The position numbers and the translations under genes were made by a program. From an uncultured Anaeroplasmataceae bacterium (GTDB lineage Bacteria; Bacillota_I; Bacilli_A; Acholeplasmatales; Anaeroplasmataceae), in the NCBI GenBank assembly GCA_949840955.1, contig CATKXV010000001.1, positions 248,001 to 312,000 on the forward strand: a DNA stretch of 64,000 bases, given 5' to 3'. Shown here one piece after another: positions 48,479 to 56,602 of this stretch (positions are counted from its first letter, which is position 1; each line of letters opens with the position of its first letter). The notes beneath the pieces are model-generated. The model had not been told where the DNA came from, ran no database searches, and saw nothing but the letters and a program-made list of their open reading frames with translations.

Positions 48479-48862
48479 TGGTGGAGCCGGGGGGAATCGA
48501 ACCCCCGTACGCAGCAACGCCACTATACTTTCTACACGTTTAGTTTATTTATAAGTTTCATTTGCCCTAAGCAAACAAACAAGCCAAAGACAAACTACGC
48601 TCTATTAGCTTCATTTCATAGGTTAGAGTAGCACCTATAAAATATATCCTATATGAATTGAACCCTTGCTAGAATGCTATAGGAGACAAGCCTAGTCAAA
48701 GTCGCTTGAATTAAATTAGCAAGCGCATGCAGCGCTCATATTGTTAGCGCGTGCAAATAAATGTGTATTTTTTGCGGTTATTTAACCTCGACGTTGGTTA
48801 AGCAGACTACTGCTACGTGCTTATATAGCTTAAATCACCACGGCGAATCCAAAAACGACCCC
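48479..48862 (-). ncRNA. ssrA: Transfer-messenger RNA
   Basis: A 384-base tmRNA that rescues stalled ribosomes. The 3' end carries a T arm with TTCGATT loop, a CGGCTCC acceptor strand and an encoded CCA. The 5' end GGGGTCG pairs with it (one G-U). The tag frame begins at GCA (48775) and reads AKNTHLFARANNMSAACAC, stop at 48716. This 19-residue tag ends CAC where most tags end ALAA-like. In the other two frames stops come sooner. It follows smpB, as in other Firmicutes. Confidence 0.92.
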
Positions 48863-48891: not shown

Positions 48892-49344
48892 TTATTGTCT
48901 TGTTGCATCCTTTAATGCCTTTTCGATTCTTCTTTTACTATCCTTTTCCTTTAAGGATTCTCTTTTATCTGTAAGCTTCTTTCCCTTACATAGAGCAATT
49001 TCAATTTTAAGAAGAGAACCAACAAAATAAGCCTTTAGAGCTACAATAGCTAAGCCCTCCAGCTTCACTTTTGTAGCAAGCTTTATCGCCTCATGCTCAT
49101 GAAGCAGGAGCTCTCTAGAACGGAATTCTTCATGATTGAAGATATTTCCTTGTTCATATTTTGCAATATTCATATTGATGATATACGGCTTATTATTTTT
49201 AATAAGCACATAAGCATCATTTATATTACATTTTCCAGCTCTTACGGATTTGATTTCTGTACCAGTAAGCTTAATTCCAGCTTCAAATCGATCGAGGATA
49301 AAATATTCAAAGGAAGCCTTTTTATTTGTGCATACGATTTTCAT
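48892..49344 (-). CDS. smpB: SsrA-binding protein SmpB
   Basis: A 150-residue SmpB, the tmRNA partner. EYFILDRFEAGIKLTGTEIKSVRAGKCNI at the start and the C-terminal lysine-rich tail (GKKLTDKRESLKEKDSKRRIEKALKDA) are typical. It starts 4 bases after the rnr stop with GAGGTATAGG upstream; ssrA lies 30 bases downstream, so protein and RNA partner are neighbours. Confidence 0.96.
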   Translation of the reverse strand: MKIVCTNKKASFEYFILDRFEAGIKLTGTEIKSVRAGKCNINDAYVLIKNNKPYIINMNIAKYEQGNIFNHEEFRSRELLLHEHEAIKLATKVKLEGLAIVALKAYFVGSLLKIEIALCKGKKLTDKRESLKEKDSKRRIEKALKDATRQ

Positions 49345-51782: not shown

Positions 51783-53081
51783 TTATTTAACAATTTTTAA
51801 AATCAACTTAGATTCTACAGGATTTTTTGCTACAGCAAAGGCGTCCAAAACAAGTTTTATTGAATCTGAGACATTTTCAAAATTAGAATAAATCTTAGCT
51901 AAAACATCTCCTTTACCTATTTTATCATTTACCTTTTTCTCTAAAACTATACCTACACTATGATCAATTGTATCTCCTATTTTACTACGACCAGCACCTA
52001 ATATCATAGCAGCATTTCCTATAGCAAGTGCATCAATATGGCTGATGTAGCCTGCTTTATCAGAAAGAACGTCAAGGACATATTTGGCATTAGGAAATTG
52101 ATCTGGGTTATAAATATAGGAAGCATCTCCTCCTTGAGCAGCAACAAGCTTAGCAAGATAATTCAATCCCTCTTTGTTATCGATTTGCTGCTTTAAGCGC
52201 TTCTTTGCAGCTTCAATATTCTGTTCTAATCCTGCGGCAAGAACTAGATGTGCGGCAACCTCTAAGCAAAGCTCCTCAAAATCCTTAGGACCCTTTCCAT
52301 TTAAGGTTTGAATTGCTTCAATAACCTCTAAGGAATTTCCTACAGCTAGCCCCAATGGCTCATCCATATTGGTCAATATTGCTGTCATTTTTCTTCCACA
52401 ATTCTTTCCAATATTTACCATTAAGGTAGCCAGCTTCGTTGCATCCTCTACATTCTTCATAAATGCTCCACTACCCACCTTCACATCTAAGCAAATCGCA
52501 TCAGCACCACTGGCAAGCTTTTTACTCATAATAGAGGAGGCAATTAATGGAATGGATTCAACAGTTCCCGTAACATCTCTTAAAGCATAAAGCTTTTTAT
52601 CTGCTGGAGCTAGCTCTCCTGTTTGACCAACCAAGGCAATTCCTATTTCATTTACCTGTTCAATAAACTTCTGCTCCTCCATACTGATATTATAGCCTGG
52701 AATCGCCTCTAGCTTATCCAAAGTACCTCCTGTATGTCCAAGACCTCTACCACTCATTTTAGCAAATTTAATGCCCAAAGACGCAACTAGGGGTCCAACA
52801 ACCAAGGAGGTCTTATCCCCTACTCCACCTGTAGAATGCTTATCTACCTTTATTCCGTGGATAGCACTTAAATCCAAAATATCACCACTATGTAGAATAC
52901 TTTCTGTTAAATAGGTGGCTTCCTTGTCTGTCATACCTCTAAAATAAATTGCCATAGTTAAGGCTGAGGCCTGATAGGTCTCTATGGTTCCCTCTGTAAA
53001 GCCTTGAATGAAGAAATCAATTTCTTCCTTTGTTAGCTCTAAACCATCTCTTTTTTTAATAATAATATCAACTGCACGCAT
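51783..53081 (-). CDS. pdp: Pyrimidine-nucleoside phosphorylase
   Basis: A 432-residue pyrimidine/thymidine phosphorylase, which cleaves uridine or (deoxy)thymidine with phosphate. The N-terminal MRAVDIIIKKRDGLELTKEEIDFFI and signature KMSGRGLGHTGGTLDKLEAI are diagnostic, as is KHSTGGVGDKTSLVVGPLVASLG. It is a salvage enzyme that could feed deoxyribose 1-phosphate into central metabolism. AAAGGAG before the ATG. It lies 17 bases downstream of the fusion gene; the two may share a transcript. Confidence 0.95.
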   Translation of the reverse strand: MRAVDIIIKKRDGLELTKEEIDFFIQGFTEGTIETYQASALTMAIYFRGMTDKEATYLTESILHSGDILDLSAIHGIKVDKHSTGGVGDKTSLVVGPLVASLGIKFAKMSGRGLGHTGGTLDKLEAIPGYNISMEEQKFIEQVNEIGIALVGQTGELAPADKKLYALRDVTGTVESIPLIASSIMSKKLASGADAICLDVKVGSGAFMKNVEDATKLATLMVNIGKNCGRKMTAILTNMDEPLGLAVGNSLEVIEAIQTLNGKGPKDFEELCLEVAAHLVLAAGLEQNIEAAKKRLKQQIDNKEGLNYLAKLVAAQGGDASYIYNPDQFPNAKYVLDVLSDKAGYISHIDALAIGNAAMILGAGRSKIGDTIDHSVGIVLEKKVNDKIGKGDVLAKIYSNFENVSDSIKLVLDAFAVAKNPVESKLILKIVK

Positions 53082-53098: not shown

Positions 53099-54589
53099 TT
53101 ATGATTCATAGGCATTATAAATACCTAAAATATTAAATGTAGAGCACTCCAACTGCTCTATTTCCTCTTTCACTTGATAAAGCTTTGAGATATCTTTTTG
53201 ATGAAGATCCAATTCAAGGTAAAAGATATAATTCCCAATTACATCTCTTCTAGGTCTAGATAGGATGGACTTTAGATTAAACCCATAGTGATGAAATCTT
53301 TGTAATAAAGAAAACAATTGTCCAGCCCTATCCCTTTTGGGAGTAATCGTTATGGAGCAGGAATAGTTCTTTTCCACCATTTCCTCCTCCATTGTCTTAG
53401 AAATCAAAACAAATCTTGTTTCATTCTTTAAATTGGTTAAAATATCTTTTTCTACAAAAGAAAATTCATCTGCTTTTATATGACTTGGAATAATAGCCCC
53501 AACCCTCTGATCCTTATTTTCCTTTAAAAGGAGGAGGCTTTCCATATTGGATTGAGTAAAAATTGGGGTTAGCCTATGCCGAATCAAATAATCTTGGCAT
53601 TGTCCATAGCTTTTAAACTGCACATAAACTGAATCCATATCAGAAAAGCTTTTTTGATAGCTGACAAAATGGAACTGAATTGGTAGCTTTATCTGTTGTT
53701 TGATTTTTAAATCATATTTCATTATAGAATCTAGACTTTCCATAACATATCCATCTAATGTATTTTCAAAAGGCACAAGAGCATCCATACTATCCTTTAC
53801 CCTATGGCATACCTCTACTATGCTAGGAAAATAACAAATGGAATATTTCCCTAAAAAGCTTTGACTGGCCTTATCAGAATAGGTTCCCTTTGGTCCTAAA
53901 ACTGCAAGTTCTCTTTTTTTCTTCTCATAAAGAGGAATCATCATAAAGCTCTTTGCTGAATCAAAAAAGTAAACACTTTTTCTAGAATCCTGCTTCAATA
54001 CCAAAGGCTCAGCTGTAAATAATAGGGCTGTGTCATCCTCTAAGGCATAGCCATCATAGCCTGCCTGTTTTACCTCATCATTATAGCAATCTAGACCATC
54101 ATGATCATAATGTGGACATACCGTGATTGGTAGAATACCTAAGCCCTCCACCATTTTATAATTGTGGATATGGTTGGCATTTTTATAGGTATATTGGTCT
54201 CCCATACCATACTTGGAAAAAAGAATGGCTCCAGCAGATATTCCCATAAAAAGAATATCCTTATCCTGATACTCTTGCAGCAAAGACTCTAAAGAGCTAT
54301 GCTTTACAAAATGAAGCAGCCTTTCAATGGAGCCTCCTCCAAAATAAATTACATCAGCCTTAGCAAATTCCTCTGTGGCAGCATCTACATTTTTTAGATA
54401 AGAAACCGCATAGGCATGATCTACTAGATTTTCAAATTTTTCTATTGCGGATAAAATATCCTCACTTGCAAAGGGAATAAATAAAATTCTTTTTGGAATA
54501 AGACCTAAAGCTTGAAAGATTTTTTCCTCTAAGGTAAAATTCTTTAAATTGGGAATACTTCTACCTCCAAGTAAAGCATAATACGCCAT
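53099..54589 (-). CDS. Peptidase S51 (PepE-like) fused to prephenate dehydratase
   Basis: A 496-residue fusion in one unbroken frame. Residues 1-220 are a peptidase-S51/PepE-like domain with YFGGGSIERL, nucleophile Ser118 in GISAGAI and His160 in VCPHYD. Residues 227-398 are prephenate dehydratase: LGPKGTYSDKASQSF, PFENTLDGYVMESLD, and the active-site TRF motif at 391-393. Residues about 409-490 are an ACT domain with RDRAGQLFSLLQ and SRPR, the usual phenylalanine-binding region. It would make phenylpyruvate from prephenate under Phe control. I know of no standard enzyme with this pairing. It starts just after the trmB stop. Confidence 0.88.
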   Translation of the reverse strand: MAYYALLGGRSIPNLKNFTLEEKIFQALGLIPKRILFIPFASEDILSAIEKFENLVDHAYAVSYLKNVDAATEEFAKADVIYFGGGSIERLLHFVKHSSLESLLQEYQDKDILFMGISAGAILFSKYGMGDQYTYKNANHIHNYKMVEGLGILPITVCPHYDHDGLDCYNDEVKQAGYDGYALEDDTALLFTAEPLVLKQDSRKSVYFFDSAKSFMMIPLYEKKKRELAVLGPKGTYSDKASQSFLGKYSICYFPSIVEVCHRVKDSMDALVPFENTLDGYVMESLDSIMKYDLKIKQQIKLPIQFHFVSYQKSFSDMDSVYVQFKSYGQCQDYLIRHRLTPIFTQSNMESLLLLKENKDQRVGAIIPSHIKADEFSFVEKDILTNLKNETRFVLISKTMEEEMVEKNYSCSITITPKRDRAGQLFSLLQRFHHYGFNLKSILSRPRRDVIGNYIFYLELDLHQKDISKLYQVKEEIEQLECSTFNILGIYNAYES

Positions 54590-54593
54590 GATA

Positions 54594-55232
54594 TCACGCT
54601 TCCTTTCTAGCCTCTAATCGATAAATTGGGCCAAGCTTAGACCACTTTTCTTCAAATTCTGTTTCAATATTATCCTCCACAGGATCCTCATGAAGATTTA
54701 GGGATATGTTGGACAAATACCAATGATTCCTACTAAAGGATTCTAAAGAGAACTCAAACAGCTTACGATTATCTGTTTTTTGAAAAATCTCTCCCTGATC
54801 TGTTAATATATCTCTGTAGCTGTCAAGAAACGTTTTATAGGTCAGCCTTCTTTTCTGATGAGCAGCCTTAGGCCATGGATCAGAAAAATTGATATAGATT
54901 CTTGCAATCTCACCTGTAGAAAAATACTCCTGAATCTCCTTGGCATCCATTAAAATCAGTCGAAGGTTTTCTATTTTTTCTGCCTCTATTTTTTCTAAGG
55001 CACGAAGAAGAACCGAATCATATTTTTCTATGGCGATAAAGTTGACATCTGGTGTTCTTCTTGCGAGCTCTGAAATAAATTGTCCTTTACCGCACCCAAT
55101 TTCAATATGAATGGGATGATTATTAGAAAATAGGGTATTCCAGCTTCCCTTATATTGCTTAGGCTCAGCTATAAAATAGAAGGTATTCTGTTTTAGTTTA
55201 TCCAAAGCATTTTTTACTTTTCTTAAGCGCAT
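54594..55232 (-). CDS. trmB: tRNA (guanine-N7)-methyltransferase
   Basis: A 212-residue TrmB that forms m7G46 in tRNA with SAM. IEIGCGKGQFISELARRTPDVNFIAIEKYD holds the SAM-binding region; INFSDPWPKAAHQKRRLTYKTFL is the family's hallmark. It starts 3 bases after the pepV stop without a clear ribosome site, suggesting coupling to pepV. In Bacillus trmB also lies in this neighbourhood. Confidence 0.95.
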   Translation of the reverse strand: MRLRKVKNALDKLKQNTFYFIAEPKQYKGSWNTLFSNNHPIHIEIGCGKGQFISELARRTPDVNFIAIEKYDSVLLRALEKIEAEKIENLRLILMDAKEIQEYFSTGEIARIYINFSDPWPKAAHQKRRLTYKTFLDSYRDILTDQGEIFQKTDNRKLFEFSLESFSRNHWYLSNISLNLHEDPVEDNIETEFEEKWSKLGPIYRLEARKEA

Positions 55233-55234
55233 AC

Positions 55235-56581
55235 TTATTTCGTAAGCTCATATATTGCCTTGGCATAGATGAGGATTGCTTGCTTAAAATCCTCTAAAAC
55301 CATGTATTCATCAGCAATATGGCATACATCCTCTCTTCCTGGAAGCATTGGACCATAGGCAACAGCACTATCTACAAATTTAGCATAGGTACCTCCACCA
55401 ATTGTAATTGGCTTTGCCTTTGTATCCTTTGTAACCTCTTGATACACCTTCATTAGCGTAGTAACTAAAAAGCTGTTTGGATCTACATAATGAAATCCAC
55501 CAAAACTTAAAAACTCTGGCTTCAGCTGATATTCCTCTGTTGCCTTGCAAATTTGCTCCTTAATCCTCTTTTCTAAGGATGAACGAGGTACACGACAATC
55601 CACACCAATTTTAAGCAGACCATTTTTAACTTCAACAACTCCTACATTGCTCGTTAATTCCTTCATTTCCTCATCATAAAAATCAATACCTAATTTTTTT
55701 CCAAAGGGATCAAAGGTTAAATATTTTGTAAAAAATTGAGATAGCCTTGTAGAATGAATTTCTTCTAAAAATTCAAATAGAATAAAGCTAGCATTCATTC
55801 CCTTGTTCGGAACCATTGCATGAGAGCCAACACCATAGGCAATATAGCTATCCTCCAAAACCTTTCCTTGATAGCCTTTTTTCTGTAAGAATGCCTCATA
55901 TTCTTTTCTATAATCCACCTTCAATTTCATTGTGGCGAGGGCAGGAACAACATTATACCGATTTCCACAGGAAAACTCTGTGATAATTTCCTCTTCTCCC
56001 AGGCTTCCTTTAATATCATATGTCATATGAGCCTTTTCCCCATAGATAAGAGGAAAGTCTGCATCTGGAGAAAATCCAAGATGAGGTAACTCAAAGCTCT
56101 TAAAATAGTGCTGTAAGCATCTAGAGCCTGATTCCTCATCACAGCCCATAATCAAACGAACTCTTTTCTTAGGAAGAAAGCCCTGATCCTTAAGGAGCTT
56201 CATTGCAAGATAGGATGCTACCAGTGGTCCTTTGTCATCCATAGTTCCTCGACCATATAATTTCCCATCCTGAATATGCAAAACAAAGGGATTTGTTTTC
56301 CATTGCTGTCCTTCTACAGGAACAACATCCAAATGCGCAAGAATACCCAAAAGCTCTTTTCCTTCGCCAAACTCAATATGTCCTGCATAATTCTTATCAT
56401 TGGCGACAACAAAGCCATCCTTACTAGCATATTCTAATATAAATTTAAGGGCATGCTTATTTTCTTCTCCAAAGGGAGCATCCTTTTTTGGGTCAAAGGT
56501 ATCTAAAACCGTCTTATAGGAAACAAGCTTTGAAAGTAACAGCAAGCCCTCCTCTATATAATTTTCTACTTTAAATTCCAT
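55235..56581 (-). CDS. pepV: M20 dipeptidase PepV
   Basis: An M20-family metallo-dipeptidase of about 448 residues. Metal ligands are visible: His in LAHLDVVPVEGQQW, Asp in MDDKGPLVASYLA, Glu-Glu in GCDEESGSRC, Asp in SPDADFP and late His in EDVCHIADEY. It hydrolyses dipeptides in the cytosol. I use the ATG at 56581, about 9 bases after AAGGAG; the first in-frame ATG touches that site. Followed directly by trmB. Confidence 0.93.
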   Translation of the reverse strand: MEFKVENYIEEGLLLLSKLVSYKTVLDTFDPKKDAPFGEENKHALKFILEYASKDGFVVANDKNYAGHIEFGEGKELLGILAHLDVVPVEGQQWKTNPFVLHIQDGKLYGRGTMDDKGPLVASYLAMKLLKDQGFLPKKRVRLIMGCDEESGSRCLQHYFKSFELPHLGFSPDADFPLIYGEKAHMTYDIKGSLGEEEIITEFSCGNRYNVVPALATMKLKVDYRKEYEAFLQKKGYQGKVLEDSYIAYGVGSHAMVPNKGMNASFILFEFLEEIHSTRLSQFFTKYLTFDPFGKKLGIDFYDEEMKELTSNVGVVEVKNGLLKIGVDCRVPRSSLEKRIKEQICKATEEYQLKPEFLSFGGFHYVDPNSFLVTTLMKVYQEVTKDTKAKPITIGGGTYAKFVDSAVAYGPMLPGREDVCHIADEYMVLEDFKQAILIYAKAIYELTK

Positions 56582-56602
56582 AATTTCCATCTCCTTGAAA
56601 TG

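Follow-up and report, generated by a model that had tools for sequence, protein, structure and literature searches.

The window analysed here, a 64,000-nucleotide stretch of the genome of an uncultured gut Anaeroplasmataceae bacterium, contains a gene whose peptidase S51 domain runs straight into a complete prephenate dehydratase (PDT) that includes an ACT domain. The gene reads as one uninterrupted frame on the reverse strand (Table 1). We consider it likely that the product is a bifunctional protein created by the fusion of two neighboring, probably translationally coupled operon genes, and that its halves work as separate enzymes. The domain pairing is real and apparently unreported, a new combination of two known families; our search of the open-access literature found no report of an S51-PDT fusion. 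The initial annotation had already described a single frame, with no strand given, and had named both domains, identities that are borne out by Pfam, by profiles built on PDB entries and by fold matches.

Table 1. Coordinates of the fused gene, its parts and its conserved operon neighbors in the window.
Feature	Position	Strand	Details	Evidence
Fused S51-PDT-ACT gene	53099..54589	-	496 aa	
S51 (PepE/YgaJ/MccG-like serine hydrolase) domain	53924..54589	-	Residues 1-222	Pfam PF03575; PDB profile matches to Lmo0363, cyanophycinase and PepE; residue conservation
Linker	53912..53923	-	K223-K224-K225-R226; A7 run at 53914-53920	Comparison with split relatives
PDT catalytic domain	53393..53911	-	Residues 227-399; Glu275-Asn276; TRF 391-393	Pfam PF00800; motif invariance; PDB 2qmw
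ACT regulatory domain	53102..53377	-	Residues 405-496; SRP motif 444-446	Weak Pfam match; PDB profile and fold matches
trmB-like tRNA methyltransferase	54594..55232	-	Conserved upstream neighbor, 4-nt gap	Pfam PF02390; synteny
pepV-like M20 dipeptidase	55235..56590	-	Conserved upstream neighbor	Pfam PF01546; synteny
Pyrimidine nucleoside phosphorylase (deoA/pdp)	51783..53081	-	Conserved downstream neighbor	Pfam PF00591/PF07831; synteny

Pfam places Peptidase_S51 at residues 16-193 (E 2e-24; 86.8 bits, cut-off 23.9) and PDT at residues 229-399 (E 4.4e-31; 108.5 bits, cut-off 25.2). The ACT match at residues 419-480 reaches 21.1 bits, under the 27-bit cut-off. Despite this sub-threshold score, the PDB profile and fold matches extend across the ACT domains of 2qmw and 6vh5, identifying it as an ACT domain. 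The best NCBIfam match of the whole protein is prephenate dehydratase, at 162 bits and below the cut-off of 219. An AlphaFold2 model, computed from an alignment of the window and locus sequences, has a mean pLDDT of 94.6 and a pTM of 0.85, from which the relative placement of the domains should not be over-read. Searched with Foldseek, the model matches PDTs (2qmw, 6vh5, 3mwb) over one half and cyanophycinase and PepE structures over the other.

The frame is not a chance product, because the same fused frame occupies the same operon position in six other genomes from three other genera. The fusion is thus found in seven genomes of four genera (the window's own, g2, g3 and g5), all within a family that its named relatives identify as Anaeroplasmataceae, mostly gut and rumen MAGs. 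Absence of the architecture from all close relatives had been named as a finding that should count against it; the fusion is indeed absent from the ten other genomes of the window's genus, all unfused, but present in those three other genera of the family. The architecture as such is independent of the window's assembly, whereas the junction in the window is known from a single assembly.

Across the family, S51 is nearly universal (54 of 55 genomes) and PDT is present, always as a single copy, in 46 of the 55. In 38 of these 46, PDT is either fused to S51 or directly behind it. The eight genomes of genus g4 keep S51 in the operon and carry a far less similar PDT elsewhere. This divergent PDT (SHEQ motif in L068) lies, for example, at G028:C3:188854-189651, and because g4 carries it at another site, the PDT of the family has been replaced or transferred at some point. 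Four genomes, each more than 90% complete (G005, G006, G008 and G016), retain S51 with no PDT found, so S51 does not need PDT. These four contain chorismate synthase and chorismate mutase and are possible phenylalanine auxotrophs. In G006, a match over 1-289 interrupted by stops looked like a decayed PDT but was a spuriously extended alignment; the gap of 87 nt from S51 to deoA contains no PDT. In the wider phylum, 35 of 392 genomes have an S51 relative at 1e-12. At the loci checked outside the family, these have no PDT within about 1.5 kb, and their neighbors share no common theme. When genome contigs were scanned, a single-protein query gave no matches and an alignment query did; its matches outside Anaeroplasmataceae are PDTs without S51.

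In split relatives, the stretch corresponding to the linker carries the S51 stop, the PDT start or both. The two genes overlap by 4 nt (ATGA) or by about 8-41 nt, and in most of these relatives GAGG/GAAGGAG-like motifs lie in the codons that end S51. The split genomes of the window's genus have the ATGA overlap, except for one with a 2-nt gap, mostly preceded by GAGG within the final S51 codons; genus g6 has a longer overlap in another phase. Short overlaps of this type couple translation (PMC10666635), so the split pairs are probably coupled. In the window, the junction reads TATGAGAAGAAAAAAAGAGAACTTGCAG: the siblings' ATG and GAGG have both been lost, and a single frame passes through the A7 run.

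This run raises the question of whether the window truly contains two overlapping genes, like its siblings, joined by an A7/A8 miscall or an error of assembly. A single base gained or lost in the run would break the frame in two, with a stop after 230 or 238 codons. With A8 the S51 frame would be 238 codons long, similar to that of the siblings, and all ten other genomes of the genus are unfused. Loss of both the ATGA and the GAGG, however, means that more than one base separates the window from the split state, and among the six other fused frames several have no homopolymer run at the junction. We regard such an error as a small probability.

To place the fusion in time, we consider the trees. 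In the tree of pepV, trmB and deoA, the fused genera g2, g3 and g5 fall outside a clade of g1 and g6, within which fusion is seen in the window alone. Grouping all fused forms as a single clade is rejected, with p-AU of 2.6e-105 on the neighbor genes and 4.6e-10 on PDT. Because it is nested in a genus whose ten other genomes are unfused, the fusion in the window is a separate event. Two histories are simplest: a pair of separate fusions, or an early fusion followed by at least one fission and then by renewed fusion in the lineage leading to the window. The second fits somewhat better because g1 and g6 differ in the phase of their overlaps; the data do not decide between the two.

The order pepV-trmB-S51-(PDT)-deoA is conserved across Anaeroplasmataceae, and in many cases secG-rnr-smpB come next (we took the gene names from the sequences). 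In the window, smpB (48892-49344) is followed immediately by a tmRNA gene at 48479-48862 (-); a tmRNA near smpB is also seen in L050 and L057. An OmpR-type response regulator lies directly upstream of S51 in g3, g5 and G004 (L053:6453-7112, L055:6964-7617, L051:6221-6934), and in g3 a class IV aminotransferase (L055:5800-6867) lies upstream of the regulator. The same operon contains a second fusion of neighbors, between a VCA0040-like gene and pepV, in G014 and as a homologue in G024. In genus g5 (L064:3864-6215, L063:2430-4697), PepV is fused to this VCA0040-like membrane protein, which resembles undecaprenyl phosphate translocases; G020 (L053) has them as adjacent, unfused genes. Because of this second case, the pepV-trmB-S51-deoA operon seems prone to fusion between neighbors.

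The initial annotation saw no obvious link between the halves in the phenylalanine pathway, and we agree. No such link is needed, because the two genes are operon neighbors that overlap in most relatives. One might instead view S51 and PDT as a single regulated machine, a heteromeric complex in the split relatives, in which phenylalanine bound to ACT tunes S51 or S51 acts on an amide related to phenylalanine or prephenate. Fusion on at least two separate occasions, the proximity of the genes in 38 of 46 PDT-bearing genomes and the pTM of the two-domain model are in keeping with this view. We retain a functional tie in the discussion mainly because gene pairs with short overlaps often encode subunits of a complex (PMC10666635). 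Repeated fusion, together with adjacency wherever the family's type of PDT occurs, could likewise mean selection for a physical tie, something that a plain fusion of neighbors would not require. Several good genomes, however, keep S51 without any PDT, g4 has its PDT elsewhere, and no S51 locus checked outside the family has PDT alongside. Moreover, the entire operon is syntenic, so it is no more remarkable for S51 to lie next to PDT than next to trmB. Overall, coupling of the two functions appears unlikely. Its fullest form, a true functional unit in Anaeroplasmataceae that is a complex in most species and was fixed covalently at least twice, with ACT-bound phenylalanine controlling a peptidase or amidase and so tying peptide scavenging to phenylalanine synthesis, strikes us as distinctly improbable.

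The fusion of operon neighbors that we favor leaves each half to be judged as an enzyme. In the S51 half, Ser118 (GISAG; 54236-54238), Asp131 and His160 (54110-54112) are each invariant in 44 of 44 S51 sequences from the family, so the serine and histidine picked out by the initial annotation hold in relatives too. Position 184 (54038-54040), assigned as the third catalytic residue by alignment only, is Glu in 41 of the 44 and Asp in three. This is the pattern of the S51 family: a serine nucleophile, a histidine and Glu or Asp as the third residue. PepE itself uses Ser120-His157-Glu192, and clade V enzymes use Ser-His-Asp (PMC9239234). Streptomyces Orf2 requires an additional aspartate, Asp147, 13 residues after Ser134 (PMC11078827); Asp131 of the window protein has the same spacing from Ser118. 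With these residues conserved, the S51 half has the look of an active enzyme, and its motifs are nearer to those of clade V than to those of Salmonella PepE. It is probably a serine hydrolase of the PepE/YgaJ/MccG type that cuts a small peptide or an aspartyl or isoaspartyl amide.

More specific roles for this half fare less well. It was proposed to recycle phenylalanine-containing or cyanophycin-like dipeptides, and we found no support for this idea. The protein falls far short of the equivalog cut-offs for both PepE (NF003642; 38.3 versus 156 bits) and cyanophycinase (TIGR02069; 32.8 versus 126.6 bits), and the window's genome has no cyanophycin synthetase above cut-off, with only partial matches of at best 116 versus 850 bits. 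The persistence of S51 without PDT, and the separate PDT of g4, also speak against it. Alternatively, the S51 half could be a mainly protective hydrolase like MccG that destroys aspartyl-nucleotide antibiotics and became fused to PDT by happenstance. Clade V, which includes B. subtilis PepE and MccG, does contain such hydrolases, mostly as standalone genes, although two members tested conferred no protection (PMC9239234). The closest annotated plasmid matches, 'peptidase E' proteins of Priestia and Streptomyces, have similar motifs but only about 28% identity, and the operon is one of housekeeping genes and not an antibiotic cluster. We consider a protective role very improbable. We also rejected origins on a plasmid, all plasmid S51 matches being distant, and in a phage, since none of the phages searched gave a fused match.

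In the PDT half, Thr391-Arg392-Phe393 (the TRF motif noted at the outset) and Glu275-Asn276 are invariant in 36 PDT sequences. The SRP of the ACT domain is conserved among relatives; the ESRP motif reads LSRP in the window protein. Val323 aligns with Ser208 of the E. coli P-protein, the serine of an SHPQ motif that is common in PDTs but not defining. We dropped Val323 as an oddity of this lineage after outgroups revealed a subfamily trait and no loss peculiar to the window protein: VQFK replaces SHPQ throughout a large PDT subfamily that includes Lachnospiraceae, Clostridium and Mollicutes-type PDTs. Given Val323 and LSRP, sensitivity of this PDT to phenylalanine is only putative. We searched the window, the aro locus and three relatives for Rfam elements that could mediate phenylalanine control, T-boxes among them, and obtained only tmRNA.

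The fused gene is both the sole PDT and the sole S51 of its genome. This genome has chorismate synthase and a chorismate mutase, the latter a separate gene on another contig (G000:C4:28550-28783). Its aro cluster, read by eye, also includes DAHP synthase, a TyrA-like gene, AroB, AroA and AroE, whose N-terminal domain is recognized by Pfam. That AroE shikimate dehydrogenase N-terminal domain is followed in the same protein by an APH-type phosphotransferase domain at the C-terminus (L067:10127-11539, G000 contig 4), a further unusual fusion in this genome's aromatic pathway. As the only PDT alongside these genes, the PDT half is most likely the working enzyme of phenylalanine synthesis in its host.

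Taken together, these observations suggest the following course of events. The order pepV-trmB-S51-deoA is the common frame, in which PDT came to sit directly behind S51; in split species its ribosome-binding site lies within the final codons of S51. The two genes would then have been joined, at least twice, once the stop/start overlap was lost and a length change restored the frame. The C-terminal half would turn prephenate into phenylpyruvate on the way to phenylalanine, with ACT feedback predicted from family membership, and the N-terminal half would work independently of it. Fusion would hold both enzymes at 1:1 and drop the separate translation start; it would neither channel a substrate between the halves nor bring about crosstalk.

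Fusions of unrelated domains are often read as a functional link, and the S51-PDT case warns against inferring function from architecture alone. It is a clean illustration of how a fusion can arise from an overlapping operon junction, with the stages coexisting in one family: S51 alone, S51 overlapped by a PDT gene, and fusions that originated at least twice. These natural fused and split versions, one of them in a cultured species, offer material for testing a real link.

Several known systems resemble parts of this protein. The stand-alone PDT of S. aureus (2qmw) shares the fold, the PDT and ACT domains and TRF (profile E 4.7e-52, Foldseek rank 1), whereas the window protein adds an N-terminal S51 domain and falls within the 'VQFK..GQC / SRPTK' PDT subfamily, which is common among Clostridia and relatives of Mollicutes. 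AroQ-PheA P-proteins also have a second enzyme fused N-terminally to PDT, and such chorismate mutase-PDT fusions are old and arose several times (PMC1173090). In the window protein, however, the N-terminus is an S51 hydrolase and not the preceding pathway enzyme, and there is no N-terminal chorismate mutase domain. Placed by motif and not by tree, the S51 half resembles clade V (B. subtilis PepE/YgaJ, MccG, Streptomyces Orf2) in its CPHY...(E/D) Ser-His-acid pattern and in Asp131, the counterpart of Orf2 Asp147, but differs in its low identity to annotated 'peptidase E' proteins and its fusion to PDT. Cyanophycinase (CphB) shares the S51 fold, with Foldseek and profile matches, but the window protein is far under its equivalog cut-off in a genome lacking above-cut-off cyanophycin synthetase. 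The closest parallel in a cultured organism is Anaeroplasma bactoclasticum ATCC 27112 (L094), which has the same S51 and PDT genes at the same operon position but, unlike the window, keeps them as two overlapping, unfused open reading frames in different frames.
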